64,000 bases of DNA, taken from contig JAURJT010000002.1 of the NCBI GenBank assembly GCA_030832095.1, forward strand, positions 1-64,000, in the 5' to 3' direction. A program made the position numbers and the translations under genes. Source of the DNA: Gammaproteobacteria bacterium. GTDB lineage: Bacteria; Pseudomonadota; Gammaproteobacteria; Burkholderiales; Burkholderiaceae_B. The stretch's first letter is position 1. Each line of letters begins with the position of its first letter. Positions 13,666 through 43,650 of the stretch are shown one piece after another. The notes under the pieces were generated by a model. That model was not told where the DNA came from. It did no database searches and saw only the letters and a list, made by a program, of their open reading frames with translations.

Positions 13666-13814
13666 ATCTAACGTTGTGACTTCGACAGCTATGACTTTGT
13701 CACTGTAAACATACCACTTCGACAGCTATGACTTTTTTCAATGTGGAACGTATCACTTTTACAGCTATGACTTTGTCACTGTGCAACATATAACTGCGAT
13801 ATGTACGACTTTGT
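13666..13814 (-). repeat. 38-bp tandem repeat of the SDR gene's 3' end
   Basis: Four units of 34-39 nt stand in direct order on the minus strand: 13776-13814, 13738-13775, 13700-13737 and 13666-13699. The first encodes the last codons of the SDR, and each of the first three closes with TGA. The shared core is AAAGTCATAGCTGT, then a variable middle and CAnTGA. Later units carry several stop codons in frame and are non-coding. The array fills the spacer between the SDR and the outer-membrane gene. Confidence 0.85.
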
Positions 13815-14612
13815 GTGAGGTCCGCCGTCTACCATCAAGGCCGCCCCGTTCACATACGACGCTCGGGGCGAGGCTAAAAACACGACCACGTTGGCGATGT
13901 CAGAAGGCACTCCCCACGTTTGCCCTTTCGGCACCGAGACAGTTTCAAGCTTGTCGCGGTTGGCAATAGCAGAATCCGCTTGCCATTGCCCACCAGAGGC
14001 TTGACTTTCCCATAGACGAAAGCGTTCTTCGGATTTGACCACACCTGGGATCACGCAGTTCACTCTGATGCCAAATTCTGCTAATTCTGTTGCTAAATCG
14101 ACAGAAAAACGCACTTCTGCGGCCTTTGCCGGGCCTGTACAGCTTGAGCCAGGCGGAAAATTACCCCGAGTGGCGGTGCGCCCAGAGATGTTGATAATGG
14201 ACGGAAAGCTTGATTGTTTGAGCAAAGGCAAGGCTCGTTGCGACACCCGAAACTGTGCAAAAAAGTTGATCGCCATGCCATCTTGCAGTTCGTCGTCAGT
14301 GACAGTGGCGAAGGGTTTATAGATGCCAGTGCCGGCGTTGTTCACCAAGATATCAAGTCGACCAAAGCGCGACTGAAGGTATGCAATCAGTTTGTCGATA
14401 TCCGCAAGCTTGGTCATATCTGCTTGCACGGCTTCAATTGTTCCGCCGTGAGTTGACGCATTTGAGGCAACCGCCTCATCGAGTTTGCTTTGACGGCGCC
14501 CGCAAATTACTACGTGCGCGCCTTCGTTGGCAAACGCTTGAGCGGTGGCCAGGCCAATGCCTTCACTGCCGCCGGTGACGCAAACGACTTGTCCTGCTAG
14601 ATCTAGATTCAT
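13776..14612 (-). CDS. Short-chain dehydrogenase/reductase
   Basis: Classical SDR (278 aa). The nucleotide-binding motif is VTGGSEGIGLATAQAFA near residue 12, the structural NNAG motif sits near residue 91, and the C-terminal AALMVDGGPHTKSYI is typical. The active site is unusual: where most SDRs have YxxxK the segment after INISGRTATRGN reads SSCTGPAKAAEVRFS, so the catalytic Tyr seems replaced by Cys/Thr while the Lys is kept. This may mean altered or lost dehydrogenase chemistry. It is followed in the same direction by its own duplicated 3' ends. It shares the strand with the Bug gene 7 nt upstream. Confidence 0.87.
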   Translation of the reverse strand: MNLDLAGQVVCVTGGSEGIGLATAQAFANEGAHVVICGRRQSKLDEAVASNASTHGGTIEAVQADMTKLADIDKLIAYLQSRFGRLDILVNNAGTGIYKPFATVTDDELQDGMAINFFAQFRVSQRALPLLKQSSFPSIINISGRTATRGNFPPGSSCTGPAKAAEVRFSVDLATELAEFGIRVNCVIPGVVKSEERFRLWESQASGGQWQADSAIANRDKLETVSVPKGQTWGVPSDIANVVVFLASPRASYVNGAALMVDGGPHTKSYISQLYVAQ

Positions 14613-14619
14613 GGTTGGC

Positions 14620-15612
14620 TTAATCGACCTTGATATTCAAGCGGCGAATGATTTCGCCGAAACGTTTGATTTCGCTTTGTGTGAAGGCAGCAAGTTGTTC
14701 AGGTGTTGAATATTGGTACTCGGCACCTTGAGTGATGATCCCCTTCTGAATCTCGGGGCGCGCCAACACGTTTTTGGCTGCTGCGTTCATCAGATCAATG
14801 GTCTCTTTTGGTGTACCTGCACGCGCAAACAAGGCAAACCACTGAGAAATTTCAATATCTTTAAAACCGGCCTCTGCAAAGGTTGGCACATCAGGCATTG
14901 TTGTTGAGCGTTTTGCACTAGCCACTGCAAGCACTTTGATTTTGCCTGATTGATATAGTGCCGAGGCTGAAGCGACACCCACAAATGAAAGTGCAATCTG
15001 CCCAGCGGCAACATCGCCGATGGCTGGCGCGTCGCCTTTGTAGGGCGCATGCACCATATCAATCCCCGACGCCGCCTTAAAAGCCTCGCCTGCTAAGTGA
15101 CCGGTCGAGCCTACACCGCTACTCGAAAATGCCAACTTACCCGGATTTTTTTTGCCGTAGGCAATTAACTCGGCAATGTTATTAATGCCGAGACGCGTAT
15201 CGACGGATAGCGTCAGGGGGACGAAGCCAACCATACTAATTGGCGCAAAGTCTTTCACCGCGTCGTAGGGCAACTTAGGGTAAAGGGTTGGATTTGTACC
15301 GTGCGTGGCGCTATTGCCAGTCAAGACGGTATAGCCATCGGGTGCAGATTTTGCAACAAAAGTGGCGCCGACAATACCGTTTGCGCCGGTTTTGTTTTCG
15401 GCAACGATCGTACCTTTCAGTTCAGTGGCCATGTGTTGCGCCATCAGGCGCGTCAGATAGTCGTTGGCACCACCCGCAGCAAAAGGCGAAATAAACTGAA
15501 TGGGCTTGTCCGGAAACGTGGCAACGGCCTGTGTCGCCGTGAGCGTCAAACCCAGTGCTAAGCCCGCGACAGCGGCAAATCTTTTAAATACATTGGTCTG
15601 GCGTTGGTTCAT
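14620..15612 (-). CDS. Bug-family tripartite tricarboxylate transporter binding protein
   Basis: Periplasmic binding protein (330 aa, normal length) of the Bug/TctC family, which is greatly expanded in Alcaligenaceae. A signal peptide of about 32 residues ends in TQAVA|TFPDKPI; the mature start FPDKPIQFISPFAAGGANDY carries the usual 'P.D.P...V.PF.AGG..D' mark, and AKSAPDGYTVLTG and GVGSTGHLAGEAFK follow. No TctA or TctB membrane genes are nearby, as is common for Bug genes, which may share permeases. It is transcribed with the SDR downstream. The ligand is probably a carboxylate. Confidence 0.93.
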   Translation of the reverse strand: MNQRQTNVFKRFAAVAGLALGLTLTATQAVATFPDKPIQFISPFAAGGANDYLTRLMAQHMATELKGTIVAENKTGANGIVGATFVAKSAPDGYTVLTGNSATHGTNPTLYPKLPYDAVKDFAPISMVGFVPLTLSVDTRLGINNIAELIAYGKKNPGKLAFSSSGVGSTGHLAGEAFKAASGIDMVHAPYKGDAPAIGDVAAGQIALSFVGVASASALYQSGKIKVLAVASAKRSTTMPDVPTFAEAGFKDIEISQWFALFARAGTPKETIDLMNAAAKNVLARPEIQKGIITQGAEYQYSTPEQLAAFTQSEIKRFGEIIRRLNIKVD

Positions 15613-15691
15613 CTTGGTCTCCGGTGCTGCGCCTGCTCAGTGGCCGATGCGCATTTGTTTTAGTGGTAACGGGTCAAGTGTAAGCACTTTT

Positions 15692-15721
15692 GCTTTAGTT
15701 CATGGTGTGCGCTTTAGTTCA
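15692..15721. repeat. Direct repeat of GCTTTAGTTCA in the divergent promoter region
   Basis: Two exact copies of GCTTTAGTTCA (15692-15702 and 15711-15721) lie 19 nt apart, about two helical turns, immediately beside the 9-bp palindrome. The arrangement suggests a second regulator site or an extended one; no direct evidence exists. Confidence 0.5.
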
Positions 15722-15723
15722 AT

Positions 15724-15744
15724 ATATTCCATAATATGGAATAT
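15724..15744. promoter_or_regulatory. Palindromic operator candidate between the Bug and hotdog genes
   Basis: Perfect 9-bp inverted arms ATATTCCAT and ATGGAATAT flank a 3-bp spacer. The site lies in the 231-bp region between two divergently transcribed genes, the Bug binding protein and the double hotdog protein. The TTCCAT...ATGGAA form resembles sites bound by IclR- and GntR-type regulators of aromatic and acid catabolism, but no regulator gene is in the neighbourhood. The regulator is therefore unassigned. Confidence 0.6.
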
Positions 15745-15843
15745 TTCATCAAGTATGATGCGTGGCTTAGGTGCGCCATCGCTTAGGATATCGATCGCGC
15801 TTGGCCTTTGGCGTTTTATCACGACTACCCTTGGATTAGCGAT

Positions 15844-16785
15844 ATGCAGCAAGTGTCAAACACCCATCCCATTCTTGAACGCGCCCGTATAGCCGTGGCG
15901 CTGAACCGCACGCCCGGTTATCACTTCTGTGGCAACTTCTTTAACCTGCTGTTTGACGACGTCGATAACCAGCATTCGATCGTGCATATGGACCCTGCCG
16001 TACAGTGCGCCGATCAAGATGGCCAACTTAGCATGACCGCCTTTGCCATGCTGGCCGATATGGGGTTAGCCACTGGCATTCGTTTTGGCTTAGAAAAAAC
16101 AACCCGCTTGGCGACGGTGTCGATCAGTTTGCAGCTTACCGGTGCGCCCAGATTAGGGCGTGCAACGGCCTCGAGCAAATCGCAGGGCTTTATTCAAGGC
16201 GCGAGCGCACAGCAAGGCTTAAGTCAAGCGCGTATTACCGCCGGTGGCGAGTTGGTGTGTATTGGGCATGGCGCTTTTATGATCTTGCCTGTACCCGGGG
16301 GCAAAGTTTTGGATCCGATTCCTTGGGTTGAAACCAAGCCACCCCAGAACCCATCCTTAGATTTGTCAACGCTGAGCGAAGACGAGGCCTGGGTGTTAAC
16401 GCGGGTTGAACAAGCCATCGAAAAAACCAAGCAAGACGGCGGAAACTTTGTCACGCATTTCTTGGGACTGTATCCGGTTGTACAAGAGACTGGTGCGCAC
16501 GTCGTCATCGAAAACGGTGCGCATATCGCCAATCGCGTCAAGCACGTGCAGGGTGGGATTGTGTTGGCGTTGGGCATGGAAACTGCCTCTGCGGCCTTGG
16601 GCGTTGACTGGATGCTGTCGGGTGTGACGGCAACCTATATCAGCCCCGGCGAAGGCGAAACGATTTCAGCGACGTCAACAATTGTGCACCGTGGGCGCAT
16701 GACCGTAGTGGTAAGCACCCAGGTCATCAACAGCACCGGGCGCAAGGCGCTCGAAGTGATTACGACCCACGCTCGCAGACCGTAG
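15844..16785 (+). CDS. Tandem hotdog-domain protein, PaaI/thioesterase-like
   Basis: Protein (313 aa from ATG 15844; a TTG 36 nt earlier is less likely) made of two hotdog-like halves. The first has CADQDGQLSMTAFAMLADMG, with the acidic residue and helix expected for the thioesterase family, and TRLATVSISLQLTGAPRLGR as the central strand. The second has GAHVVIENGAHIANRVKHVQGG, then an ALGVDWMLSGVTATYISPGEG strand. Such proteins hydrolyse or bind acyl-CoA thioesters; the substrate is unknown. It is divergent from the Bug gene across a palindromic site and is followed 48 nt later by a PLP enzyme in the same direction. Confidence 0.72.
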   Translation: MQQVSNTHPILERARIAVALNRTPGYHFCGNFFNLLFDDVDNQHSIVHMDPAVQCADQDGQLSMTAFAMLADMGLATGIRFGLEKTTRLATVSISLQLTGAPRLGRATASSKSQGFIQGASAQQGLSQARITAGGELVCIGHGAFMILPVPGGKVLDPIPWVETKPPQNPSLDLSTLSEDEAWVLTRVEQAIEKTKQDGGNFVTHFLGLYPVVQETGAHVVIENGAHIANRVKHVQGGIVLALGMETASAALGVDWMLSGVTATYISPGEGETISATSTIVHRGRMTVVVSTQVINSTGRKALEVITTHARRP

Positions 16786-16833
16786 TCGCATAATCTACCC
16801 TCCACAGATGCCACTTTTACTCACTGATCACTC

Positions 16834-17964
16834 ATGAAACTGACTGACCTCATCACCCCCGTCGCCCTTATCGATCTACCTCGCATGCAGCACAACATTG
16901 AGCGAATGCAAGCACAAGTCGCGAGTTTGGGTGCGACCTTCAGGCCCCACGTGAAGACGTCAAAATGTGTGCAGGCCACTGAGGCGCAAATTCAAGCCGG
17001 TGCGCAAGGTATCACGGTATCGACAATTAAAGAAGCTGAACAGTTTTTTGCCGCTGGGATTCGGGATATTTTGTATGCGGTGGGCTTGGCGCCTAGTAAA
17101 CTCGCAGCGGCAGCGGCTCTGATAGGCAAGGGCTGTGATCTTAAAGTGTTGACCGATAGCGTGCAATCAGCACAGGCAATGGCAGCCTTTGCCAAAGCGC
17201 AGGGGCTCAATTTCAAGGTACTGATCGAAATCGATACCGATGATCATCGTTCGGGGATCAAGCCCGAGTCAGCAGCACTATTAGCGGTGGCGCAGGCCCT
17301 TGAGTCACCAGCCTGCGAGATTGTTGGAGTGATGACGCACGCGGGCTCAAGTTACGACTTAAATACGCCCGAGGCACTGATTGCCATGGCAGAACAAGAG
17401 CGCGCGGGCTGCGTGCGCGCAGCTGAACGATTGCGCCAAGCTGGGTTTGCTTGCCCGATTGTGAGTATCGGATCAACCCCCACGGCCTTGTCAGCAAAAA
17501 ACCTTGAAGGTGTGACCGAGGTGCGGGCGGGCGTGTATGTCTTTTTCGATTTAGTGATGCATAACATCGGCGTGTGTACAAAAAACGAAATTGCACTCAG
17601 CGTGTTAACCAGTGTGATTGGTCATCAAGAAGAAAAAGGTTGGGCCATTGTTGACGCGGGTTGGATGGCTATGAGTCGCGACCGTGGCACACAAAAGCAA
17701 ACGACTGATTTTGGTTATGGACAAGTCTGCGAACTTGATGGGAAGGTGCTTGAGGGTTACACCATTAGCGGTGCTAATCAAGAGCACGGAATTGTTTCGC
17801 GTGCTGGACAGCCCGATTTAGAGATCGCCAAGCGCTTTCCGATTGGTACGCAATTTAGGATTTTGCCGAATCACGCTTGCGCCACGGGTGCACAGTTTCC
17901 TGAGTATCAAGCGCTTGACGCCCAAGGCACCGTTCAAACCTGGAGCCGCTTTTACGGCTGGTAG
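16834..17964 (+). CDS. Fold-III PLP enzyme, DSD1 family (D-serine dehydratase / D-threonine aldolase-like)
   Basis: PLP enzyme (376 aa) with an alanine-racemase-like N-terminal barrel and a C-terminal DSD1 metal-binding domain. Marks are TPVALIDLPRMQHNIERM, TFRPHVKTSKC with the PLP lysine (Lys41), VLIEIDTDDHRSGI, VSIGSTPTALS for phosphate binding, and ILPNHACATGAQF near the end with the metal-binding His and Cys. It is clearly distinct from the related enzyme at 6.2-7.4 kb, which has HCDPT in this place. The likely substrates are beta-hydroxy-D-amino acids. It probably shares a transcript with the hotdog protein. Confidence 0.85.
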   Translation: MKLTDLITPVALIDLPRMQHNIERMQAQVASLGATFRPHVKTSKCVQATEAQIQAGAQGITVSTIKEAEQFFAAGIRDILYAVGLAPSKLAAAAALIGKGCDLKVLTDSVQSAQAMAAFAKAQGLNFKVLIEIDTDDHRSGIKPESAALLAVAQALESPACEIVGVMTHAGSSYDLNTPEALIAMAEQERAGCVRAAERLRQAGFACPIVSIGSTPTALSAKNLEGVTEVRAGVYVFFDLVMHNIGVCTKNEIALSVLTSVIGHQEEKGWAIVDAGWMAMSRDRGTQKQTTDFGYGQVCELDGKVLEGYTISGANQEHGIVSRAGQPDLEIAKRFPIGTQFRILPNHACATGAQFPEYQALDAQGTVQTWSRFYGW

Positions 17965-18029
17965 AACACAATAGCGAAACCGGCTGCATTTAGCCATCGC
18001 GATTGCTACGAATTGATGCCTGTTTAAGA

Positions 18030-18064
18030 GCAGTGCACACTGCGTTCTTGTTTAAATCAACAAG
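18030..18064 (+). promoter_or_regulatory. Two small hairpins in the 5' region of the pilus operon
   Basis: GCAGTG / CACTGC with a 2-nt loop (18030-18043) is followed by CTTGTT / AACAAG with a 6-nt loop (18047-18064). The second ends directly before the ribosome-binding site AGAGGTG of the first pilus gene and could hide or expose it. A GTTTAA element flanks the first hairpin on both sides. The role is inferred from position only. Confidence 0.4.
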
Positions 18065-18073
18065 AGGTGCAGT

Positions 18074-18478
18074 GTGTCTGTTCAGTCTTCAAACCAATCA
18101 GTCAAGTTATCTTTGCAAGGCCTTGCACAGCAATCCACGCGCGGCCTAGCACCGCTTTCTAACCGTGTCCTAGCGCGCAAATCCATGCGCGACACGGCGC
18201 CGCGTCGCTTCGGCCAAAGCCTGTGGCGGCAGGCCGGTCAAGGCATGACCGAATACATCATTATCGTCGCCTTAGTCGCGGTCGCTGCAATTGCGGTGTA
18301 TCAATATCTTGGGCAAGTGCTGCGGGCCCAAACTGCGGCGGTCGCAAAAGAGCTCGCTGGTGAGGATGGCACTCAGCAGTCGCGCGCGGCACAGTCTGCC
18401 GCAGAATCGGCAGCCACCCAAGCCGCTGCAAAGTCTTTAAAGGATTTCACTGGTCATGCAGAGGGCTCGGCTCGATGA
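18074..18478 (+). CDS. Flp/Tad-type pilin-like protein with long leader
   Basis: Type IVb pilin-like protein (134 aa from GTG 18074). The prepilin site and hydrophobic helix are clear: GQG|MTEYIIIVALVAVAAIAV, with the conserved Glu at position +3 after the cleavage site that Flp pilins need. Two features are odd. The leader is 57 residues instead of the usual 10-25, and it consists of 8-residue repeats. The mature part carries an Ala-rich tail of about 50 residues, making it longer than usual Flp subunits. A start at ATG 18185 would give a normal 20-residue leader but has no ribosome-binding site. It overlaps the next gene by 4 nt. Confidence 0.8.
   Translation: MSVQSSNQSVKLSLQGLAQQSTRGLAPLSNRVLARKSMRDTAPRRFGQSLWRQAGQGMTEYIIIVALVAVAAIAVYQYLGQVLRAQTAAVAKELAGEDGTQQSRAAQSAAESAATQAAAKSLKDFTGHAEGSAR
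18116..18211 (+). repeat. 24-bp degenerate tandem repeat in the pilin leader
   Basis: Four 24-nt units start at 18116, 18140, 18164 and 18188. They encode QGLAQQST, RGLAPLSN, RVLARKSM and RDTAPRRF. The units are in frame and diverged, so they are old. They make up most of the unusual leader extension of the pilin. Confidence 0.65.
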
Positions 18479-23708: not shown

Positions 23709-23742
23709 TCATTTTTGTTGCACTGTTAGTAAAGGATTTGAA

Positions 23743-25650
23743 TTGATTGAACTTGATTTGTTTTTTGAAGATGGTACACGCAGGCACGGGCGTTTTGAGA
23801 TCCCTTTGGTGATGGGCCGCGCGCCAGATTGCGGTATTCAAGTCTCGCACTGGCGTGTTGCGCGGCAACATTTACGGATCTCGCGCGCTGAAGATGGCTA
23901 TCACGTCGATGATCTTGGTTCAATTTTAGGTACGCGCGTAAACGGCAATCGTATCACCCGGTACGGACCACTTAAAAAGTCTGACGAAATTGTGGTGGGT
24001 CCGTGCTTGCTGCGACTGGCTTCTCAGGCAGCGCACGCGGCGGCGATCAAAAGCGTTTGCAGTGAGGGCACCCCGGCAGAATTCGGCAGGCTTCAATTGC
24101 AATCAGAGCCAAGGTCGATAGACAACCCCAAGCGTCGGGTGCATTCAGAAGCGAGAGCAGTGGGCCTAGACAGGTCGCAGTTGCCATCAGAGCCGAGATC
24201 GATTGCAGTCGGCAAGCTGCAGTTACAGTCAGAGCAGAACTTGTTGGCGGCTGAGCCGAGTTCTTTTGTGTTTGAGAAAGGTGTCGTTGCCTTAACCGCC
24301 CGAACGACAACGGCTGACACCAAAGAGGTGCCGCTGGGCGCTCAAAGGTTGCTTGACGAGTTCAAGTTACCTGAACCGAACGCATCGCTGTCCTTAGAGT
24401 CAGTGGATCTGGCGCAGCAAGAACTTCGCCAAGAGCTTCGTGCAGGCTTAATTCAGGCGTTTGATTTGCGGCGTAACGACGTTGGCGCACTATCTGAAGG
24501 CGCATTGAAGGCGCACGCGTTGACGTGCGTGGGTGAGTTGCTAGATAAACGACGGTTGCCGCTCAGTGAAGTGCAGCGCAGCAAAATTCTCAAACTCGTT
24601 GTCGATGAAGCAATTGGACTAGGCGTGATTGAAGAGTTGCTTGAGGATACGTCAGTCACTGAAATCATGGTCAATCGTTTTGACGAAATCTACGTTGAAG
24701 CAGGTGGGCGAATCTCGAAACAGCTGCTTCAATTTAGTAGTGAACAAGCGGTACGAAGTGTGATTGAACGTATTGTTTTCCCGCTGGGCCGCCGAATTGA
24801 TGAAGCCTCGCCGATGGTTGACGCCCGGTTGCCCAACGGGTCACGTCTAAACGCAGTGTTGCCCCCTGTCTCTGTCAAAGGCGCGAGCTTTACCATCAGA
24901 AAGTTTCCGCAAAAGCGACTGCAAATGCAAGATTTGGTTGCCCTACAAGCCTTGCCTGCGCCGCTCGCCGAGTTTTTACGCCTGTGCGTTGAGCGGCGCT
25001 TAAATATTCTCGTATCAGGCGGCACGGGTTCAGGCAAAACCACCTTGCTCAATGTGTTAGCTGGGTTTGTTGATCCCGCACAACGCATTGTGACGATCGA
25101 AGATTGTGCCGAACTGTTGATCGCTCATCCACATGTTGTGACGCTTGAAGCAAGGCAAGCAAATTCTGAAGGGCTGGGCGCAGTCACGATTCGTGACTTA
25201 GTCAAAAATGCTTTACGGATGCGCCCCGACCGTATTGTGATTGGTGAAGTGCGCAGCGCAGAAGCGATTGATATGTTGGCTGCCATGAATACCGGGCATG
25301 ATGGCTCAATCACCACTTTGCATGCGAATAGCCCGCGCGATGCTCTATCGCGACTCGAGACGATGGTGCTAAGTGGGAATGCGGGTTTGCCACTGCAGGC
25401 GATACGCGAGCAAATCGGTTCGGCACTGAAGTTGATTGTGCAGCAGACTAGATTGCCAAATGGCCGAAGGGTCATTACGGGGGTCGCCGAAGTCTCCGGG
25501 ATAGAGTCTGGCACCATTCAAACTCAACAATTAGTTAAGTTTGATGTCGGCCGTCAACGTTTAACCGGCGCAGGCTTGCGCCCCTCGGTCTTCGCTGACG
25601 CCCGAGTGCAAACTGAGTCGGCGATGATGAATTGGTTTTTACAGCTATGA
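23743..25650 (+). CDS. tadA: FHA-TadA/CpaF fusion: pilus assembly ATPase with N-terminal forkhead-associated domain
   Basis: Cytoplasmic secretion ATPase (635 aa) that powers Flp pilus assembly. The C-terminal half is a complete CpaF/TadA: VTEIMVNRFDEIYVEAGG, Walker A LVSGGTGSGKTTLLNVL near residue 428, the acidic VTIEDCAEL box, RPDRIVIGEVRSAEAIDML and the GSITTLHANSPRDALSRLE histidine box. Unusually, residues 1-90 form an FHA domain (VMGRAPDCGIQVSHWRVARQ, then DLGSILGTRVNGNRI), a phosphothreonine-binding module. A repetitive linker of about 60 residues joins the parts. The start is TTG with AAAGGA before it. The fusion suggests control by a Ser/Thr kinase; none is in the window. Confidence 0.93.
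   Translation: MIELDLFFEDGTRRHGRFEIPLVMGRAPDCGIQVSHWRVARQHLRISRAEDGYHVDDLGSILGTRVNGNRITRYGPLKKSDEIVVGPCLLRLASQAAHAAAIKSVCSEGTPAEFGRLQLQSEPRSIDNPKRRVHSEARAVGLDRSQLPSEPRSIAVGKLQLQSEQNLLAAEPSSFVFEKGVVALTARTTTADTKEVPLGAQRLLDEFKLPEPNASLSLESVDLAQQELRQELRAGLIQAFDLRRNDVGALSEGALKAHALTCVGELLDKRRLPLSEVQRSKILKLVVDEAIGLGVIEELLEDTSVTEIMVNRFDEIYVEAGGRISKQLLQFSSEQAVRSVIERIVFPLGRRIDEASPMVDARLPNGSRLNAVLPPVSVKGASFTIRKFPQKRLQMQDLVALQALPAPLAEFLRLCVERRLNILVSGGTGSGKTTLLNVLAGFVDPAQRIVTIEDCAELLIAHPHVVTLEARQANSEGLGAVTIRDLVKNALRMRPDRIVIGEVRSAEAIDMLAAMNTGHDGSITTLHANSPRDALSRLETMVLSGNAGLPLQAIREQIGSALKLIVQQTRLPNGRRVITGVAEVSGIESGTIQTQQLVKFDVGRQRLTGAGLRPSVFADARVQTESAMMNWFLQL
24088..24255 (+). repeat. 39-45 bp tandem repeat in the FHA-TadA linker
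   Basis: Four in-frame units start at 24088, 24133, 24172 and 24214 (45, 39, 42 and about 42 nt). The two best preserved encode RLQLQSEPRSI and SQLPSEPRSI, the last KLQLQSEQNLL. They form the flexible linker between the FHA domain and the ATPase. Confidence 0.7.
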
Positions 25651-32966: not shown

Positions 32967-33464
32967 ATGTCCGAGATTAACCATTCATCGCAGTCACCAG
33001 TTACCTTAAATGTTGCGCTGCAGCGTAGCGCGACGTTGAGCTTATTCGGGCTCTTTTTTCTATGTTTGCTCTGGGAGATCTGGCTGGCGCCCCTCAAACC
33101 AGGTGGCACCTTATTGTTTTTAAAAGCGCTTCCACTGGCCTTTGCGATGCGTGGGGTCTTGCGCGGCAGCCTGTATACGATCCAGTGGGCGTCTATGTTG
33201 GTGTTGCTGTACCTGATGGAGGGCGTGGTGCGGGTAATGTCTGATCCGCCTGGCCCCTCAATTATGTTGGCCTGGATCGAAATCGTCTTGGCGACCATAT
33301 TCTTTTTTAGTTCGATCTTTTATGTTCGACCAGCGAAACGCGTGGCCAAAGCTTTGCAAAAGGCAGAAAAGTTAAATCAACAGACTGAAAAGTTAAACCA
33401 ACAGACTGAAAAGCTAAATCAACAGGCAGAAAAGTTAAATCAAAAGACTGAAAACCTCAACTAG
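32967..33464 (+). CDS. DUF2069 membrane protein with heptad-repeat tail
   Basis: Membrane protein (165 aa from ATG 32967; a TTG at 32940 gives nine more residues) of the DUF2069 family, with hydrophobic segments at about residues 27-45, 50-70, 72-95 and 100-122 (WEIWLAPLKPGGTLLFLKAL is the family mark). The core ends near residue 130. The rest is unlike other family members: four and a half 7-residue repeats of the form EKLNQQT, a perfect heptad that should form a coiled coil, perhaps for oligomerisation. It is divergent from yihY across about 95 bp. Confidence 0.82.
   Translation: MSEINHSSQSPVTLNVALQRSATLSLFGLFFLCLLWEIWLAPLKPGGTLLFLKALPLAFAMRGVLRGSLYTIQWASMLVLLYLMEGVVRVMSDPPGPSIMLAWIEIVLATIFFFSSIFYVRPAKRVAKALQKAEKLNQQTEKLNQQTEKLNQQAEKLNQKTENLN
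33366..33464 (+). repeat. 21-bp tandem repeat at the 3' end of the DUF2069 gene
   Basis: Units of 21 nt start at 33366, 33387, 33408, 33429 and (truncated) 33450. The consensus codes for EKLNQQT. Copies differ by one to three bases, so this is the youngest-looking array in the window. The last unit contains the stop codon. Confidence 0.9.
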
Positions 33465-33555: not shown

Positions 33556-35193
33556 ATGACTTCATCTTCTTGTTTTGAACCCCTCGTTAAAGCAAACACG
33601 TTTGCAAGCTTACCCTCAGATTTTTATACACGCTTGCCTACGACACCGCTCACGGCGCCTCGCTTGGTGCATGCCAACGGTGAGGTTGCTGCATTGTTGG
33701 GGTTGCCCCCTCAAGCGCTTGCTACGCAAGAGTTTCTTGATGTGGTCGGCGGCACCACGCCAATGCCGGGTGGCGACACCATGGCGGCTGTGTATAGCGG
33801 ACACCAGTTTGGGGTATGGGCCGGTCAGTTAGGCGACGGGCGTGCCCACTTGTTGGGTGAGATCCAAGGGCCAGATGGCAGTTTTGAAGTGCAACTGAAG
33901 GGCGCCGGCATGACACCCTACTCACGTATGGGCGATGGGCGGGCGGTCTTGCGTTCTTCGGTGCGAGAGTATTTAGCGAGCCACGCGATGCGTGGGCTTG
34001 GCATCCCGACCACGCAGGCGCTATCGCTTGTGTCTGCACGTAATCCTGTCAGACGCGAAACCCTTGAAACGGCGGCGGTCGTGGCGCGAGTGGCACCAAG
34101 CTTTATCCGGTTTGGTTCGTTTGAGCACTGGGCTGCGCGCAGGCGACCCGACTTGCTGCGCACCCTGGCCGATTACGTGATCGACCGGTTTTACCCTGAG
34201 TGCCGCGAGGCGAGTCACTCTAGTACTGCGGGGCATACCAGAATTCTAGGTGATACGAGCACTGTAGGTGATACCAGTACTGTAGGTGAGATGAGCACCA
34301 CAGGTGATACCACCACGGCCAAAGACTACGAGCCTTACGTGCAATTGCTGCGTGCAGTCGTGCGGCGCACCGCAACCCTCATGGCAAGTTGGCAGGTTGT
34401 GGGCTTTTGTCATGGCGTGATGAACACAGACAACATGTCGATTTTGGGGCTCACCCTTGACTACGGCCCGTATGGTTTTATGGATGGCTTTGATGCCAAG
34501 CATATTTGTAATCACACCGACAGCGGCGGTCGCTACGCCTGGCATGCTCAACCCGCGGTGGCGCACTGGAATCTCTATCAACTCGCGAATAGCCTGCACG
34601 AAATCGTGCCCGAGACCGAGCCTCTGAAGGCGGCGCTTGATGAATATGAGGCTTGTTTTCTAGGCGCGATGCAAACTCGAATGAGTCAGAAGTTAGGTTT
34701 AAGCGCCTGGCAATCGGGTGATGAAACGTTGATCGATGACCTTTGGAGTCTGATGCAAGCTAGCCATGCTGACTTTACGCTGACCTTCAGGCAGCTGGCT
34801 TACGCGCCAGGGCTGACGCAAGCGTCGCAAGAGCAAATTGAGCACGATTTGGGCGGCACGGTGAACGCCAACCTGCTGCCTTTTGTGGATTTGTTTGTGG
34901 ATCGCGCGGGCGCGCAAGCTTGGCTTAGCCGCTACAGCGCTCGACTGGGCTCGGACCCCACCCAACATTGGCAAGAGCGTGTTGCTGGCATGCTGGCGGT
35001 GAACCCACTGTATGTGCTACGTAATCACATTGCACAGCAGGCGATTGAAGCAGCCGAGAAGGGCGACTTTAGCGAAGTGCAGCGCCAAATGCAGCTTTTG
35101 AGCGACCCGTTTCACGCTCGGGCGGGCCAAGAAGCATATGCTGCTGCGCCACCAGCTGGGGCACCACATTTAGAGGTCAGTTGCTCTTCTTGA
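33556..35193 (+). CDS. selO: SelO (YdiU) protein adenylyltransferase
   Basis: Pseudokinase-fold enzyme (545 aa) that transfers AMP to protein hydroxyls. The family core is complete: YSGHQFGVWAGQLGDGRAHL, QLKGAGMTPYSRMGDGRAVL, the ligand-binding GVMNTDNMSILGLTLDYGPY, and the C-terminal Cys in LEVSCSS, in the position where eukaryotic members have selenocysteine. It is longer than the usual roughly 490 aa because of a 36-residue low-complexity insert of 6-residue repeats (GDTSTV type) between FYPECREA and DYEPYVQLLR. The 3' end with the Cys motif is duplicated downstream. Confidence 0.95.
   Translation: MTSSSCFEPLVKANTFASLPSDFYTRLPTTPLTAPRLVHANGEVAALLGLPPQALATQEFLDVVGGTTPMPGGDTMAAVYSGHQFGVWAGQLGDGRAHLLGEIQGPDGSFEVQLKGAGMTPYSRMGDGRAVLRSSVREYLASHAMRGLGIPTTQALSLVSARNPVRRETLETAAVVARVAPSFIRFGSFEHWAARRRPDLLRTLADYVIDRFYPECREASHSSTAGHTRILGDTSTVGDTSTVGEMSTTGDTTTAKDYEPYVQLLRAVVRRTATLMASWQVVGFCHGVMNTDNMSILGLTLDYGPYGFMDGFDAKHICNHTDSGGRYAWHAQPAVAHWNLYQLANSLHEIVPETEPLKAALDEYEACFLGAMQTRMSQKLGLSAWQSGDETLIDDLWSLMQASHADFTLTFRQLAYAPGLTQASQEQIEHDLGGTVNANLLPFVDLFVDRAGAQAWLSRYSARLGSDPTQHWQERVAGMLAVNPLYVLRNHIAQQAIEAAEKGDFSEVQRQMQLLSDPFHARAGQEAYAAAPPAGAPHLEVSCSS
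34213..34320 (+). repeat. 18-bp in-frame tandem repeat inside selO
   Basis: Six 18-nt units begin at 34213, 34231, 34249, 34267, 34285 and 34303. They encode SHSSTA, GHTRIL, GDTSTV, GDTSTV, GEMSTT and GDTTTA. The array explains the extra length of this SelO and lies in a surface loop position by alignment with the family. Confidence 0.85.
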
Positions 35194-35354
35194 GGCGCGG
35201 ACGTGTGCAAGTGGCTATAGCCGTTGCGCCTACCTCAGACAATCTGCATTTAGAGGTGAGTTGCTTTTCAAGAGGCAGTGACGTGGGCAAAGGGGTCCAA
35301 GCCGCTGCGCTTCTCGAAGAGACATCGCCTTTAGAGGTCAATTGCGCTGAGTGA
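35170..35354 (+). repeat. 80-81 bp tandem repeat of the selO 3' end
   Basis: Units start at 35170 (inside selO), 35250 and 35331 (partial), each opening with TTAGAGGT, then (C/G)A(G/A)TTGC. The first encodes the final LEVSCSS and stop. The second and third read LEVSCFS and LEVNCAE in a frame shifted by -1 relative to selO, which is open from 35190 to a TGA at 35352-35354. Confidence 0.85.
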
Positions 35355-35443
35355 TGCAATAATGTGCTTTTGAAGGTTGCTATGCCATCTTTTAAAGGGC
35401 AAACGTGACCTGACTCTGTTCATTTTTTCGGTACTTGTCGCCT

Positions 35444-36502
35444 ATGTCTGGTAATACGCTCGGTACGCTATTTTGTGTGACTAATTTTGGTGAGTCACAT
35501 GGCCCCGCAATCGGCTGTGTGGTCGATGGGTGCCCTCCTGGCCTGGCGCTTTGCGAACAAGATATTCAAGTTGAACTTGATCGTCGTCGCCCCGGCACCT
35601 CGCGCCACGTGACGCAGCGCCAAGAGGCAGACCAAGTTGAGATTTTGTCTGGGGTCTATGAGGGCAAAACCACCGGTACACCGATTGCGTTGTTGATTCG
35701 TAACGTTGATGCACGTAGTAAAGACTACAGCGCCATTGCCGATACGTTTAGGCCTGGGCATGCTGATTTCACCTATTTCAATAAGTACGGCGCGCGCGAC
35801 CCGCGTGGCGGTGGCCGTTCGTCGGCCCGGTTAACGGCTCCCACAGTGGCTGCCGGAGCAATCGCAAAAAAATGGCTGTCTGAGCACGCTGGGATCAAGG
35901 TGCGGGGGTATATGAGTCAGTTAGGCCCGATAGTGATGCCTTTTGTCAGTTGGGATTACGTTTCGAGTAATCCGTTTTATGCCGCCAATGACACCAGCAC
36001 GCCTGAACTCGAGGCCTATATGGATCAGTTACGCCGCGATGGGGATTCTGTGGGCGCTCGGATCGAAGTCGTGGCCGAAGGCTTGCCCGCTGGTTGGGGC
36101 GAGCCCATCTATGACCGGCTAGACGCAGACATTGCCTACGCGATGATGGGTTTAAATGCCGTTAAAGGCGTTGAGATTGGCGCTGGCTTCAAAAGTGTTG
36201 AGCAGCGCGGCTCTGAGCACGGCGACGAGATTACGCCCGAGGGCTTTTTGACGAACAACGCCGGCGGTGTGTTGGGTGGAATCTCGACGGGTCAGCCGAT
36301 CACGGTGAGCCTGGCGATTAAGCCAACCTCAAGTATTCGGACCGAGCGCCGCTCAATTGACCGGGCCGGCAACCCTGTGATGGTGCAAACCCTAGGTCGC
36401 CACGACCCGTGCGTGGGGATTCGGGCGACACCGATCGCCGAAGCCTTGCTAGCCTTGATTTTGATCGATCATGCTTTGCGCCATCGCGCGCAGTGCGGGT
36501 AA
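35444..36502 (+). CDS. aroC: Chorismate synthase
   Basis: Last enzyme of the shikimate pathway (352 aa): it converts EPSP to chorismate with reduced FMN. The start is ATG 35444; a TTG 9 nt earlier is less likely. Family marks are [19 protein letters not shown], the [14 protein letters not shown] segment, [31 protein letters not shown] and, near the end, [16 protein letters not shown]. All are intact and the length is normal. It is preceded by the selO repeat array and followed by the leucine genes after 130 bp. Confidence 0.96.
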
Positions 36503-38042: not shown

Positions 38043-38047
38043 ATATC

Positions 38048-38704
38048 ATGGATTCATTCATCACGCATCAAGGTTTGGTTGCTCCGCTCGATCGCGAAAA
38101 CGTCGATACAGATCTGATCATTCCAAAGCAGTTTCTGAAGTCAATCAAGCGCACTGGCTTTGGCCCAAACTTGTTTGACGAGATCCGTTATCTGGATCAT
38201 GGTGAGCCTGGGATGGACAACTCCAAGCGCCCGTTGAACCCAGAATTTATTTTGAACCACTCACGCTATCAGGGTGCTTCAATTTTGTTGGGTCGTAAAA
38301 ACTTTGGCTGCGGTTCAAGCCGCGAGCATGCCCCCTGGGCGCTGGCGCAATACGGTTTTCGCGCAGTGATTGCCCCATCATTTGCCGACATCTTTTTTAA
38401 CAATAGCTACAAGACAGGCTTCTTGCCAATCGTGTTGTCTGAGTTGCAAATCTCGCGCCTGTTTGACGAGGTGCGTGGCTTTGTGGGCTACAAGCTAACA
38501 ATCGATCTTGAAAAACAAGTCGTGATTGCACCCGACGGTCGTGCGATGGATTTTGATATCACTGCGCATCGCAAATATTGCATGATCAATGGCTTAGATG
38601 AAATTGGTTTGACTCTGCGTCAGGCCGATAAGATTCGAACCTTTGAGGCCGAGCGGCTCGCCCGCCATCCTTGGTTAGATGTTCAACCAATCGGTGCACG
38701 TTAA
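38048..38704 (+). CDS. leuD: 3-isopropylmalate dehydratase small subunit
   Basis: Swivel-domain partner of LeuC (218 aa, normal for betaproteobacteria). Marks are [20 protein letters not shown] at the N-terminus, [19 protein letters not shown] for substrate binding and [17 protein letters not shown]. It follows leuC closely and is separated from leuB by a short spacer with a hairpin. Confidence 0.96.
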
Positions 38705-38718
38705 TTAATTTAGACGTT

Positions 38719-38736
38719 GGGCCGGTTTACCGGCCC
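38719..38736 (+). terminator. Hairpin between leuD and leuB
   Basis: A perfect 7-bp GC-only stem (GGGCCGG / CCGGCCC) with a TTTA loop, followed by ATTACTTTT, lies 14 nt after leuD. It could attenuate transcription into leuB or protect the leuCD message from 3' decay. Since leuB has no other obvious promoter, complete termination is unlikely. Confidence 0.5.
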
Positions 38737-38758
38737 ATTACTTTTGGATCAAAGCAAC

Positions 38759-39835
38759 ATGACAAAGAAAATTGCAGTCTTGCCAGGTGATGGGATTGGC
38801 TCCGAAATTATGGAACAAGCGGTTCGCGTCTTGGGCGCGTTGAAATTACCCCTTGAAATCACGCATGCCCCTGTAGGCGGCACCGCCTACGACCTACACG
38901 GTCATCCGTTGCCACCCGCCACCTTGAAACTCGCACAAGAATCAAACGCGGTGTTGTTTGGCGCTGTGGGCGACTGGAAATACGACAAACTGCCTCGCGA
39001 GCATCGCCCCGAGCAGGCGATTTTGGGGCTGCGTAAGGCGCTCGGTTTGTTCGCGAACTTTCGCCCAGCGATTTTGTATCCTGAGTTAGCCAACGCGTCA
39101 TCTTTAAAGCCCGAAATCGTCTCTGGCCTAGATATTTTGATTTTGCGTGAGCTGACCGGCGATATTTATTTTGGTTCACCCCGTGGCGTGCGCGTGGCCC
39201 CTGACGGCCCATTTGCCGGTGCGCGTGAAGGCTTTGACACGATGCGTTATGCCGAACCTGAAATTCGCCGCATTGCACATTTGGGTTTTCAGGCAGCGCT
39301 GAAGCGTCAACGTCGCTTGTGCAGCGTTGACAAGGCCAACGTGCTTGAAACCTCGCAACTCTGGCGCGATATCGTGACCGAGATCGGCAAAGAGTATCCG
39401 GATATTGCGTTGTCGCACATGTATGTTGACAACGCTGCAATGCAGTTGGTGCGCGCGCCGCGTGACTTTGACGTGATTGTGACGGGCAATCTGTTTGGTG
39501 ACATTCTGTCTGATGAGGCGTCGATGCTGACGGGTTCAATCGGCATGCTGCCCTCCGCCTCGCTCAACGCCTCGGGTCAGGGCTTGTATGAACCGAGCCA
39601 TGGCTCGGCCCCTGACATTGCCGGTAAAGGCGTTGCAAACCCTTTGGCTACGATCTTGTCTGCAGCGATGATGTTGCGCTACTCGCTTGATCAAGCCGCG
39701 CAGGCTGATCGTATCGAGCAAGCTGTTCGTCGTGTGCTTCAGCAAGGGTTACGCACCGCCGATATTTATGAGCCAGGCACAACTAAAGTTGGCACTGTAG
39801 CGATGGGCGATGCTGTTTTGAAGGCTTTAGGCTAA
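38759..39835 (+). CDS. leuB: 3-isopropylmalate dehydrogenase
   Basis: NAD-dependent dehydrogenase (358 aa from ATG 38759; the open frame upstream is spacer). It oxidises and decarboxylates 3-isopropylmalate. [36 protein letters not shown], the substrate arginines in [36 protein letters not shown] and [20 protein letters not shown] are the standard marks. A 7-bp inverted repeat (GAAGGCT / AGCCTTC, 39820-39854) spans the stop codon. Confidence 0.96.
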
Positions 39836-39958
39836 TCGGGTGACTTTAGCCTTCGCTCGACAGGGCGGGCTAGGCAGGCGAGTCATCTGGATGTTTGACC
39901 AGAGCCACTCGCAGGCGGCGTAAGCGAGTCTAAGGTGGCGTAATAACCTTGGTGTTAA

Positions 39959-39988
39959 CATAGACCCTAAGTGCATAGACTCTAAGTG
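39959..39988. repeat. 15-bp tandem duplication between leuB and asd
   Basis: CATAGACCCTAAGTG (39959-39973) is followed directly by CATAGACTCTAAGTG (39974-39988), one mismatch. Just upstream two diverged copies of a GGCGGCGTAA element are seen near 39915 and 39935. The 185-bp spacer holds no gene. Confidence 0.75.
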
Positions 39989-40020
39989 CACGTATTTAAA
40001 TGATTTTTTGGTTTTTAACG

Positions 40021-41148
40021 ATGAAACAGTCTGTTGGGTTAGTGGGTTGGCGTGGGATGGTGGGCTCTGTGCTCATGCAACGCATGCGCGACGAGGGTGA
40101 TTTTGCCTTGATCGACCCGGTCTTTTTTTCAACAAGCAATGCGGGTGGTCGTGCGCCTGAGTGGGCCGGTGCCACCGCCTTGCAAAATGCCTTCGACATC
40201 GACGCCTTAAAAAAACTTCCAATTATCCTGACCGCGCAGGGCGGCGACTATACCAGCGAGGTCTATCCCAAACTGCGCGCAGCGGGTTGGACGGGTACTT
40301 GGATTGATGCTGCAAGCACGCTGCGCATGAAAGATGACGCCATCATCGTGCTCGATCCCGTGAATCGCCCAGTGATTGACGCGGCGCTCAAGCGTGGCGT
40401 CCGAAATTTTATTGGTGGTAATTGCACCGTTAGTTGCATGCTGATGGGCTTGGCCGGTTTGTTTAATCAAGGTTTGGTGCAGTGGATGACCAGCATGACT
40501 TACCAAGCTGCCTCTGGCGGGGGCGCGCAGCACATGCGTGAATTGCTCACGCAGTTTGGTTTGCTTAATGTGTCGGTCAAAGCCCAGCTCGATGACCCCG
40601 CTTCAGCGATTCTTGACATTGACCGCAGCGTGCTGGCTTTACAGCAAAGTGGCAAGTTACCGACTGAGCACTTTGGGATTCCTTTAGCAGGTAACCTGAT
40701 CCCTTGGATTGATAAAGATTTGGGCAACGGGATGTCGCGCGAAGAATGGAAAGGCGAGGCTGAAACCAACAAGATTTTGGGTCGTGGTGAAGGTTTTGGC
40801 TCAACCCCGATTCCGATTGATGGTTTGTGCGTTCGTATTGGCGCGATGCGCTGCCATAGCCAAGCGCTCACGATTAAGCTCACTCGAGATGTGCCCATTG
40901 ACGAAATTACTGATATTGTCAAAAACGGTACGGCTTGGGCTAAGGTCGTGGCGAACACTAAAGACGCTACGCTAGAAGGATTGTCACCCGTTGCAGTCAC
41001 GGGTACGCTTGATATTCCCGTTGGACGTATGCGCAAGCTATCAATGGGCCCTGAGTATCTGGGTGCCTTTACAGTTGGTGATCAACTGTTGTGGGGTGCG
41101 GCCGAACCCTTGCGCAGAATGTTGCGTATTTCGTTGGGCGAACTTTAA
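40021..41148 (+). CDS. asd: Aspartate-semialdehyde dehydrogenase
   Basis: NADP-dependent enzyme (375 aa from ATG 40021) that makes aspartate semialdehyde for lysine, threonine and methionine synthesis. The cofactor motif is [18 protein letters not shown], the active-site Cys lies in [19 protein letters not shown], and [19 protein letters not shown] and [17 protein letters not shown] follow. This is the proteobacterial type (about 370 aa). fimV follows after 17 nt. Confidence 0.96.
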
Positions 41149-41165
41149 GTCAATGGAGTGTTGTG

Positions 41166-42686
41166 ATGCGCGATGAACTGAACGTTGTCTGCCGAAAGTC
41201 GCTGCAGTTTGGTGCAACGCTTGGCTTAACACTTGCCGTTTGTACACAAGCCTTTGCGTTAAAAGCCGGGCACGGTGGGGTGGATTCAATGCCTGGTGCA
41301 CCTTTGAAGGTGTCGATTCCGTTACTCGAGGTTCTTGCCGCTGACGTTTCTTCCTTGCGGGTCAAGGTGGCCGCGGCTGAGGCTTGGGCCAAATCCGGGT
41401 TGACTCCGCCAGTGAGTCTTGACTCGATGACGGTATCAATCGAGGCGGGGTTCGTAAAAGATTCACGCATGTTGGTGCTTCGTTCAAATCAACTCTCAGA
41501 CAAACCGATCATTGATGTATTGCTTGAAGTGTCTTCTTCTAGCGGTTCGACACAAATTCAATCTAGCTTTCTTGTCTTGACGCGTGCCAACGAAGGCGCG
41601 TCTGCTGGGACAGTGCTCGTGAAAGCCGGTGATACGCTCTCTGGAATCGCGCTCGCGAATCCGGTGGCCGGAGCAGATTTGTATCAGATGCTTTGGGCGC
41701 TGTATCAAGCCAATCCGCAAGCATTTTTCTCGAAGAACATGAATATGCTCAAGGCGGGCGTGACGCTCAAATTGCCTGATGCGCAAACTGTTCGCGCCAT
41801 CGATCCAAAACTGGCACGCGATATGTATCAAGCGCACTTGAGAGCGTTTAAAGCACTTGGTGGTACTGCGAATGACGGGAACACAATGTCTCGTGCCGCG
41901 CCGCCAGTTGTTCCGCCGCCCAGTGGGGCGCAAACGAGCTCGGTGACCACTGCTAGCGCAGCACCAACTCCGACGGCGACTGACCGCGTGTTGTTGACGT
42001 CCTCGAGCACGGCAGAGCAACGCGAAGATGCTCGAGTGTCTGCAGCCAAAGAGATCGCTGAGATTCAAGCTCGTGTGGATAGTTTGCAAGAAAACGTCAA
42101 ACAACTGAAAGACGCGTTGAGTCGAACACCAGATGGGAACACCTCTAACTCGGCGAACGCTAACGGGTCGTCCAGAGCCGTGGGTACCCCTGGCGCTACC
42201 GGCGCACCTGGCGCAACAGGTACTGCAGGCAATGCAGGTACGACAGGTGCAGCAGGTGCAGCAGGTGCAGCAGGTGCAGCAGGTAATGCAGGTACAGCAG
42301 GTAATGCAGGTACGACTGGGAGTGCGGATGCATCCAGTGCAAGCACGGCTGCAGCGGGCGCGACGTCTGCGAGCCCACCGCCGGTGAAGACTGTGACCGG
42401 AGCCCTTAGCCAATTTTGGTCAAGCTTTATCTCAAGCACTCTTGGGCTGATGACGGCCGCTTTGGCAATCGGTGGTTTACTTGCGGCGTGGCTGTTGCGC
42501 CGGGCGGGAGCGCGACGTGAAGTCGACGAGGTTGAGGGCGACGAGGTGTCTGAACCGCTCAATCCGTTAATGCGAACTGCACTAGATCAAAAACTCCAAG
42601 GGATTGATCTCAATCTTGATCAAACAAAGGTAACTGATAAAAAAGAGCCGTCTATTACGCAGCCTAACGCAAGCCCAAAGGCTTGA
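41166..42686 (+). CDS. fimV: FimV-like protein with LysM domain and collagen-like segment
   Basis: Inner-membrane peptidoglycan-binding protein (506 aa from ATG 41166, GGAG in front). Order: signal peptide (cleaved near QAFA|LKAG), FimV N-terminal domain (VLRSNQLSDKPIIDVLLEVS), LysM (VLVKAGDTLSGIALANPVAG), a coiled coil (EIQARVDSLQENVKQLKDAL), a Gly-X-Y repeat stretch, one membrane helix (LGLMTAALAIGGLLAAWLL) and a short acidic cytoplasmic tail. FimV homologues organise type IV pili at the pole. The large TPR-containing cytoplasmic domain of longer family members is missing. Its place between asd and truA is conserved in the order. Confidence 0.88.
   Translation: MRDELNVVCRKSLQFGATLGLTLAVCTQAFALKAGHGGVDSMPGAPLKVSIPLLEVLAADVSSLRVKVAAAEAWAKSGLTPPVSLDSMTVSIEAGFVKDSRMLVLRSNQLSDKPIIDVLLEVSSSSGSTQIQSSFLVLTRANEGASAGTVLVKAGDTLSGIALANPVAGADLYQMLWALYQANPQAFFSKNMNMLKAGVTLKLPDAQTVRAIDPKLARDMYQAHLRAFKALGGTANDGNTMSRAAPPVVPPPSGAQTSSVTTASAAPTPTATDRVLLTSSSTAEQREDARVSAAKEIAEIQARVDSLQENVKQLKDALSRTPDGNTSNSANANGSSRAVGTPGATGAPGATGTAGNAGTTGAAGAAGAAGAAGNAGTAGNAGTTGSADASSASTAAAGATSASPPPVKTVTGALSQFWSSFISSTLGLMTAALAIGGLLAAWLLRRAGARREVDEVEGDEVSEPLNPLMRTALDQKLQGIDLNLDQTKVTDKKEPSITQPNASPKA
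42183..42320 (+). repeat. 9-bp repeats coding a collagen-like Gly-X-Y segment in fimV
   Basis: Fifteen consecutive Gly-X-Y triplets (GTP, GAT, GAP, GAT, GTA, GNA, GTT, four GAA, GNA, GTA, GNA, GTT) are encoded by nearly identical 9-nt units such as GCAGCAGGT. The repeat is unstable by nature and probably varies in copy number between strains. Confidence 0.9.
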
Positions 42687-42711
42687 GCTTAGTTAATTGT
42701 TATCTGTATCA

Positions 42712-43509
42712 ATGCCACGCTTAGCGCTTGGGATCTCGTATGATGGGCGCCCGTGGCAAGGTTGGCAAAAGCAACCAAACGGGCAGACTGTCCAAGATGC
42801 GCTAGAGCGCGCCTTGGCGGCGTTTGCCACCGTTCCTGTGCAGACCACCTGCGCAGGGCGAACTGATACCGCAGTCCATGCGCTAGGTCAGGTGGTGCAT
42901 TTTGATTGTGAAATCCATCGCACCGAAGAGTCTTGGGTGCGAGGGGTGAATGCGCACCTTCCTGAGTCGATCTCAGTGCAATGGGCGCAATCTGTCAATG
43001 ATACTTTTCATGCAAGATTTTCAGCCACTGCGCGGGCCTATACCTATGTGCTGTTAAATAGCCGTGTGCGTCAGCCCCTTTGGGCAGGCAGAGCGGGTTG
43101 GGTATTTCAACCACTTGATGTGTTGTCAATGACTCAAGCGGCGCAGTCTTTGTTGGGTGAGCACGACTTCAGCAGTTTTCGCTCATCGCAGTGTCAAGCT
43201 AAGTCACCCGTGCGCACGATTTCTGAGCTTAATGTCGTGCAAAAAGGGAGCCTCATTCTTGTGTCGTTGCGCGGCAATGCTTTTCTGCATCATATGGTGC
43301 GCAATATTATCGGTGCCTTGGTGCAAATTGGGCAGGGTAGAGAGCCAGTTCAATATATGGCTGACTTGTTAATACTGAAAGACCGAACCAAAGGTGCGCC
43401 AACGTTTTCTCCTAATGGTTTATATCTGACAGAGGTGTCATATCCAGCTGGTACCTTGGCCCAACCGCAGGGCTTAGGTTTCGGCCTCGACCATATTGTT
43501 CGAGGATGA
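42712..43509 (+). CDS. truA: tRNA pseudouridine synthase A
   Basis: Enzyme (265 aa from ATG 42712) that makes pseudouridine at positions 38-40 of the tRNA anticodon arm. The catalytic Asp lies in [38 protein letters not shown] at the N-terminus and [19 protein letters not shown] near the C-terminus are family marks. The last codons ([11 protein letters not shown], stop) are the first unit of a tandem repeat that fills the spacer to trpF. Confidence 0.95.
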
Positions 43510-43650
43510 GGGCCAGCGCCTTCTCGGCACTTTGGTTTCCGCCTACAAAATCTCGTTCTAAGATAAGGCCCAGTGCGTTCTCGATGCCTTAGGTTTGGGT
43601 TTCCAAAATCTCGGTCTAGAATGAGAGTCTGCTTTTTCTCGATATCTCTT
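43466..43650 (+). repeat. 57-58 bp tandem repeat of the truA 3' end
   Basis: Units start at 43466, 43523, 43580 and 43638 (partial). Shared parts are CTCGATGCCTTAGGTTT-like openings, AAAATCTCG in the middle and a stop-like GATGAG / GATAAG / AATGAG in the same place. The first unit is the truA 3' end; the rest is non-coding spacer that reaches the trpF start. Confidence 0.85.

Follow-up and report, generated by a model that had tools for sequence, protein, structure and literature searches.

The stretch of DNA analysed here, in the following called the window, comprises 64,000 nucleotides from contig 73 of the draft genome G000, a member of the Burkholderiaceae_B (GenBank assembly GCA_030832095.1; 3.87 Mb in 94 contigs). 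Three of its genes, an SDR-family gene, selO and truA, have 3' ends that are tandemly repeated into the spacer behind them (Table 1). This had been claimed in an earlier note made from the sequence alone, and it is confirmed by Tandem Repeats Finder, a repeat search, our own array detector and the corresponding loci in relatives. Genes were called as our own hexamer-scored open reading frames (ORFs), and arrays were detected by ungapped offset self-matching (+1/-1, units of 9-150 bp, score of at least 20 unless stated otherwise). At a score of 20, 763 kb of sequence yielded 43 arrays, whereas a dinucleotide shuffle of it yielded none, and one such shuffle of each sample likewise gave no array. 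The comparison set consisted of the 31 other genomes of the genus of G000 (32 genus genomes including G000); protein matches assign G000 to the Burkholderiales, and after one record from the same genus, the best named SelO matches come from Achromobacter sp. and Pusillimonas sp.

At the SDR-family gene the array extends from the gene tail through the spacer toward the gene at 12860-13639, and the array sequence has one match in the genome. Among the relatives this array was found in G006 only (locus L161; the loci were read by eye, with the detector run on ten of them). It is absent from G017, which has the same neighbour gene, and from G008, G037, G033 and G005, and in G009, G036 and G042, where the downstream region is a different one, there is no array.

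The array behind selO, like that behind truA, is more diverged than the SDR array and was not reported by Tandem Repeats Finder at its minimum score of 30. The repeat search found three 44-nt copies at 35167, 35247 and 35328, the later two being 82% and 61% identical to the first, and the detector gave a score of 28 at offset 80. The relatives reveal where the additional units come from. In the one-unit relatives G005, G037, G033 and G008, the distance from the selO stop codon to the aroC start is 69-70 nt, and the spacer opens with TGATGCAATAATG (stop codon included). In G000, G036, G018, G042 and L032 (a record matching G009, with a SelO 90% identical to that of the window), the selO-aroC distance is 252-282 nt, and TGATGCAATAATG sits at the end of the last unit. 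The ancestral downstream sequence has thus been displaced behind the last unit, which identifies the extra units as copies of the gene tail. A separate form, with 67-bp units, occurs at the same tail in G006. In the G005 draft the selO-aroC and truA regions are present on contig C10 as well as on contig C49, and the two contigs score equally at selO, which suggests that this draft represents two near-identical strains.

The truA array was missed by Tandem Repeats Finder and gave only 17-nt cores in the repeat search, and the detector score was 26 at offset 57. It is confirmed by relatives with one and two units, in which the units were read by eye: from the truA stop to the next start there are 36 nt where one unit is present (G009, G042 and G017), 94-98 nt where there are two (G018 and G036) and 151 nt in the window with its three units. 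The detector offsets are 57 bp in the window, 58 bp in G018 and 62 bp in G036. In this between-species comparison the copy number across six clade members is accordingly 3, 2, 2, 1, 1 and 1, and the 119-nt spacer of G006 is without that unit. A five-gene tree places G009 and G018 as sisters (support 100) and G000 with G036 (87), so the unit has either been both gained and lost or arisen repeatedly. At selO and at truA, the arrays originated from the gene tails. The alternative that sister genomes would trace the repeats to unrelated insertions was examined at all three loci and was not borne out. By our own reading of the sequence, a stop-like triplet is kept in 8 of the 9 units over the three loci, in agreement with the earlier description.

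Table 1 Genes and tandem arrays in the window.
Feature	Coordinates	Strand	Evidence and remarks
SDR-family gene	13776-14612	-	ORF; Pfam adh_short_C2, E 2.3e-48; 3' end is unit 1 of the 38-bp array
SDR gene-tail array	13679-13814	-	Tandem Repeats Finder: period 38, 3.6 copies, score 158
selO	33556-35193	+	Pfam SelO, E 1.2e-133; C-terminal coding tail is source of the 80-bp unit
selO gene-tail array	35167-35371	+	80/81-bp, three units; TGATGCAATAATG at end of last unit
aroC, chorismate synthase, downstream anchor	35435-36502	+	Pfam Chorismate_synt, E 6e-131
truA	42697-43509	+	Pfam PseudoU_synth_1, E 6.8e-44; source of the 57-bp unit
truA gene-tail array	43473-43645	+	57/58-bp, three units; detector span 43473-43583, third unit by eye
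trpF, downstream anchor	43652-44326	+	Pfam PRAI, E 9.6e-40
18-bp spacer array	7431-7553	.	Tandem Repeats Finder, detector; ends about 10 bp from the stop of minus-strand gene 7564-8661
84-bp imperfect repeat, multiple of three	24087-24233	+	Detector; inside gene 23743-25650
21-bp in-frame array	33357-33454	+	Tandem Repeats Finder, detector; 3' end of DUF2069 gene 33066-33464
18-bp in-frame array inside selO	34210-34316	+	Tandem Repeats Finder, detector
9-bp in-frame array inside FimV-like gene	42192-42312	+	Tandem Repeats Finder, detector
27-bp array	61818-61890	.	Tandem Repeats Finder, detector; spacer by own gene calls

For quantification of such arrays outside the window we sampled three genomes well: G000 (1127 kb, the window and 60 further stretches), G042 (382 kb, including contigs picked for matching the window, among them the selO/truA contig) and the congener G013 (376 kb). 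Thin samples of 15-53 kb each came from G005, G037, G033, G006, G018 and G004 of the same genus. The controls included G021, G024, which belongs to another family, and 79 loci from named records that include classes besides Burkholderiales. Arrays lying less than 90% inside genes were counted as outside gene interiors. The G000 sample contains 63 arrays (22 in genes, 18 in spacers, 17 across a stop, 4 across a start and 2 across both). Of these, 41 lie outside gene interiors, with a stop in 19 and a start in 6. The window contributes 9 of the 63, and 16 of the 19 stop arrays lie elsewhere in the genome. G042 has 46 arrays (12 in genes, 21 spacer, 9 stop, 2 start and 2 both). It is clear that arrays outside gene interiors are in excess in these two clade members: at score 20 their density per Mb of spacer is 305 in G000 and 655 in G042, as against 0 in G013, which has 5 arrays in genes, 99 in G024, 63 in G021 and 46 in the named loci.

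Individual gene ends were also scored (score 16, spacers of at least 20 bp, regions of at least 100 bp, genes cut by the end of a stretch excluded). Arrays cross the stop at 21 of 623 gene ends in G000, 12 of 213 in G042 and 2 of 50 in G005, G037 and G033 together, compared with 0 of 198 in G013, 2 of 108 in G024, 0 of 125 in G021 and 1 of 417 in the named loci. In this share G000 and G042 both differ from the named loci (p 2e-4 and 2e-5, respectively) and from G013 (p 0.004 and 5e-4). Start-crossing arrays were found at 6 of 696 ends in G000 and 4 of 240 in G042, and at none in the other five sets.

Outside genes the units measure 11-114 bp, and the median identity is 0.83 for stop arrays and 0.87 for spacer arrays. 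Several further stop arrays in G000 have units of 40, 48 and 74 bp that consist of the gene tail and the next 1-7 bases, with one extra copy of 90-100% identity. At another stop a 17-bp unit is present five times, and the spacer of the G005 orthologue is 12 nt. The arrays do not belong to a dispersed mobile repeat, a point on which the earlier note was right, as matches at E 1e-3 occur only between orthologous or adjacent arrays. All 34 arrays inside genes have units divisible by three, compared with 30 of the 75 outside genes, as purifying selection on reading frames predicts.

The earlier note had asked whether arrays are enriched at stop codons, and here the answer appears to depend on their age. 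The 75 arrays outside interiors in G000 and G042 divide into 39 spacer, 26 stop, 6 start and 4 both, where uniform placement predicts 49.8, 11.1, 12.1 and 1.9 (chi-square over the four classes p 4e-6; p 1e-4 for stops compared with starts). The uniform model takes no account of selection in promoter spacers, an omission that would make the stop excess look too large. Among arrays of at least 0.9 identity the excess is absent, with 3 stop arrays where 3.1 are expected and 14 spacer arrays (small numbers), and it resides in the older arrays, where 23 stop arrays were observed against 8.6 expected. Without any targeting, older stop arrays may be in excess if their first copy, being partly coding, is slow to diverge and so keeps the pair recognisable, and we infer that such slow divergence would produce the stop excess.

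The excess in two clade members, the unrelated units, the frame filtering and the lack of a stop excess among young arrays lead us to the explanation that this lineage has an excess of short tandem duplications wherever they are tolerated and that gene tails are caught passively, to which we assign a probability of about 0.62. The gene-tail arrays then look like a by-product of a duplication-prone lineage and not like a device for extra stops. Outside gene interiors, head-to-tail duplications with units of about 10-115 bp would either form or be retained with unusual frequency. Of those inside genes, only ones with in-frame units were observed, and those crossing a start were rarer than uniform placement predicts. 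Duplications in spacers or across a stop would survive, since the stop of the first copy continues to terminate the gene. Once a gene tail has been captured, its later copies would become spacer DNA and push the ancestral downstream sequence away, and the array would then vary in copy number like a minisatellite while it decays. Gene-tail arrays may in this manner become over-represented among the old arrays through their slowly diverging first copy. We infer that it is the rate of duplication, rather than survival, that is raised.

Several observations weigh against this explanation. The in-gene arrays are not in excess compared with G013 or the named loci (about 22 per Mb of coding sequence in G000, 36 in G042, 15 in G013 and 35 in the named loci, as divided from the counts), so that the pattern could also stem from better survival outside genes instead of a raised rate. 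At stop ends G000 does not differ from G024, of another family (p 0.56), nor from the small set of G005, G037 and G033 (p 0.69), and the trait may therefore extend beyond the nearest relatives. Of the thin samples, the 19 kb of G006 contained no array outside genes and the 19 kb of G018 two, with one in G037 and none in G005, G033 and G004. The contrast between young and old arrays rests on small numbers (Fisher p 0.043 with the boundary at identity 0.9, 0.10 at 0.88) and is not significant for units of at least 30 bp (p 0.26 to 0.73), so targeting to stops stays a live rival.

Such targeting would mean that duplication is aimed at gene ends, for example through breaks or R-loops at the sites where transcription or translation comes to an end. 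The pooled stop excess given above is what it predicts, and among arrays with units of at least 30 bp and identity of at least 0.85 there are 8 stop arrays and 10 in spacers (p 0.009 relative to a share not matched for size). We nevertheless regard it as unlikely, given that the youngest arrays fall at stops as often as uniform placement predicts and that this same expectation would exaggerate the apparent stop excess. Ordinary minisatellites arising at an ordinary rate, noticed in the window by chance, would fit the density of 46 spacer arrays per Mb in the spacers of the named loci, the lack of a difference between G000 and G024 at stop ends and the frequent intergenic over-representation of close direct repeats in prokaryotes described in the available part of PMC4060949. 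This appears improbable, since the G000 sample without the window still holds 36 arrays outside interiors, 16 of them with a stop, and since the stop-end shares differ from those of the named loci and G013.

Selection for backup stop codons or for 3' RNA structure, both proposed in the earlier note, would account for the stop-like triplets in the window units and for the stop triplet kept in 35 of 55 later copies, where 28.6 are expected (sd 3.5), a slight excess at most. A backup stop must however be in phase with readthrough, and only 10 of the 30 stop arrays in G000 and G042 have a unit divisible by three, which is the chance share, so spare stop codons fail the phase test and are not supported. 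Neither are structure or terminators, as the array ends are if anything less structured than controls: 25 of them compared with 100 controls had a mean z of -0.33 against -0.92 (p 0.12), and intrinsic-terminator-like sequences occur at 1 of 25 array ends and 16 of 100 controls. We consider such selection highly improbable. Known integrative elements duplicate gene 3' ends, and the arrays could accordingly be remnants of a mobile or site-specific element that duplicated gene ends on insertion. With units ranging from 11 to 114 bp, no sequence at E 1e-3 common to arrays that are neither orthologous nor adjacent, and, in the G000 stop arrays inspected, copies that directly adjoin one another with nothing inserted between the duplicated ends, this has very little to recommend it. 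The least credible explanation, which we regard as practically negligible, is an assembly artefact: G000 is in 94 contigs and several drafts of the genus are in hundreds, but the selO array is present with diverged units in the five genomes or records named above.

With respect to the cause, the earlier note had proposed a shared process such as a repair defect. The recurrence of the pattern over the genome and in relatives agrees with a shared process, but the repair genes do not point to a defect. MutS matches were found in 30 of the 32 genus genomes, XseA in 30 and RecJ in 26, and all three are present in G000, in G042 and in G013 with its array-free spacers, so loss of MutS, RecJ or XseA was rejected as a needed cause. 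The RecJ model had no match in six draft genomes, including the clade members G036, G009, G018 and G017, which may reflect incomplete drafts or a real loss; a RecJ match is present in G000, G042 and G006. RecB scored above the cut-off in at least 4 of the 32, with G000 and G013 not among the matches listed. ExoI had no match in any of the 32 (the control matched 1 of 14 known genomes) and therefore cannot mark the clade. The Ku model likewise had no match in the 32 (control 1 of 14), and on this ground we rejected end-joining fill-in of paired nicks, a route known from plants and cited in the available portion of PMC6954433. In eight two-copy arrays of at least 0.90 identity, the extra match at the edges was 0, 0, 1, 2, 5 and 14 nt, and two ended 6-7 nt short, suggesting, in this small sample, that long homology is not always needed.

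A topoisomerase was considered as well. The TopA model gave one below-cut-off match in each of nine genus genomes, including G013, and among the 11 genomes searched only G021 was above the cut-off. The G000 protein, whose tail is rich in lysine and alanine, is nearest to topoisomerase III. The nine genus proteins (L318, L319, L321-L327) are about 890-965 amino acids long by our own choice of start. Five array-bearing genomes differ from four others at 17 sites, at all of which G005 has the residue of the array-bearing side. These results neither support nor exclude a topoisomerase cause.

Beside the three gene-tail arrays the earlier note had listed eight others in the window. Six of them, at 7.4, 24.1, 33.4, 34.2, 42.2 and 61.8 kb, pass the score of 20 (Table 1). 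The one at 40.0 kb is short, two 15-bp copies with a Tandem Repeats Finder score of 57 and a detector score of 15, and the one at 18.1 kb is weak (detector 13 at 18121-18203, no Tandem Repeats Finder row). Four of the eight (24.1, 33.4, 34.2 and 42.2 kb) lie inside genes. The 34.2-kb array, within selO, falls where the SelO of many congeners lacks about 25-40 residues, their alignments breaking between about residues 217-226 and 253-261; G009, G018 and G002 align throughout. The array in the FimV-like gene (41091-42686) coincides with a Pfam Collagen stretch at residues 362-411, and the 61.8-kb array also falls inside a 191-residue ORF (61412-61987) without a Pfam match. At L217 (16453-16611) the last 78 bp of a gene that we read as SDR-like are duplicated, and this gene now stops nine bases into the second copy, so that its end appears to have moved. 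Three convergent gene pairs (L211 15293-15381, L230 4194-4271 and L235 8714-8786) each have a single array over both stops, with a unit close to the spacer length.

In head-to-tail unit size, intergenic place and copy number that varies between relatives, the clade arrays resemble variable-number tandem repeats (VNTRs), minisatellites and mycobacterial interspersed repetitive units (MIRUs). MIRUs form one dispersed family, whereas each clade array has its own unit, taken from the adjoining DNA. The mycobacterial MIRU-VNTR loci have intergenic 40-100 bp units of variable copy number (available part of PMC2734929). Like repetitive extragenic palindromic (REP) sequences or palindromic units, the arrays lie directly behind genes, but they contain no dispersed sequence, and inverted repeats were limited to two weak pairs in one of the three regions, the other two having none. 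The Borg tandem repeats of archaeal extrachromosomal elements, as the accessible text of PMC9879509 presents them, have three or more perfect, A-enriched units; shared with the clade arrays are the many private units, regions starting in an ORF end and the frame filtering, with in-ORF units all divisible by three and intergenic ones mostly not. The units described here differ in being diverged, often only two and in a bacterial genome. The Escherichia coli topA R168C mutator produces de novo head-to-tail duplications that are independent of existing repeats (accessible text of PMC6954433). It is a laboratory point mutant with 2-19 bp units in galK, and the clade units reach 114 bp; any likeness would be one of duplication type. 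According to PMC6954433, the way in which tandem repeats first originate from unique DNA is unknown. No account of bacterial gene-tail arrays was found in the available portions of the open-licence literature searched (including PMC2884548, PMC4060949, PMC6954433, PMC9879509 and PMC2734929). That the clade carries a natural, long-lived and sequence-independent tandem-duplication mutator, acting across speciation and building intergenic DNA partly from gene tails, with gene ends preferred, is a speculative and rather unlikely proposition.

In the clade 3-6% of the spacer-facing gene ends have been caught by an array, compared with none found in 376 kb of a congener, which offers a natural comparison for locating the cause. 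For annotation, similarity behind a gene end may represent a decayed copy of the gene and not a regulatory element. Gene-tail duplication is a simple route to the growth of spacers and to shifted gene ends.

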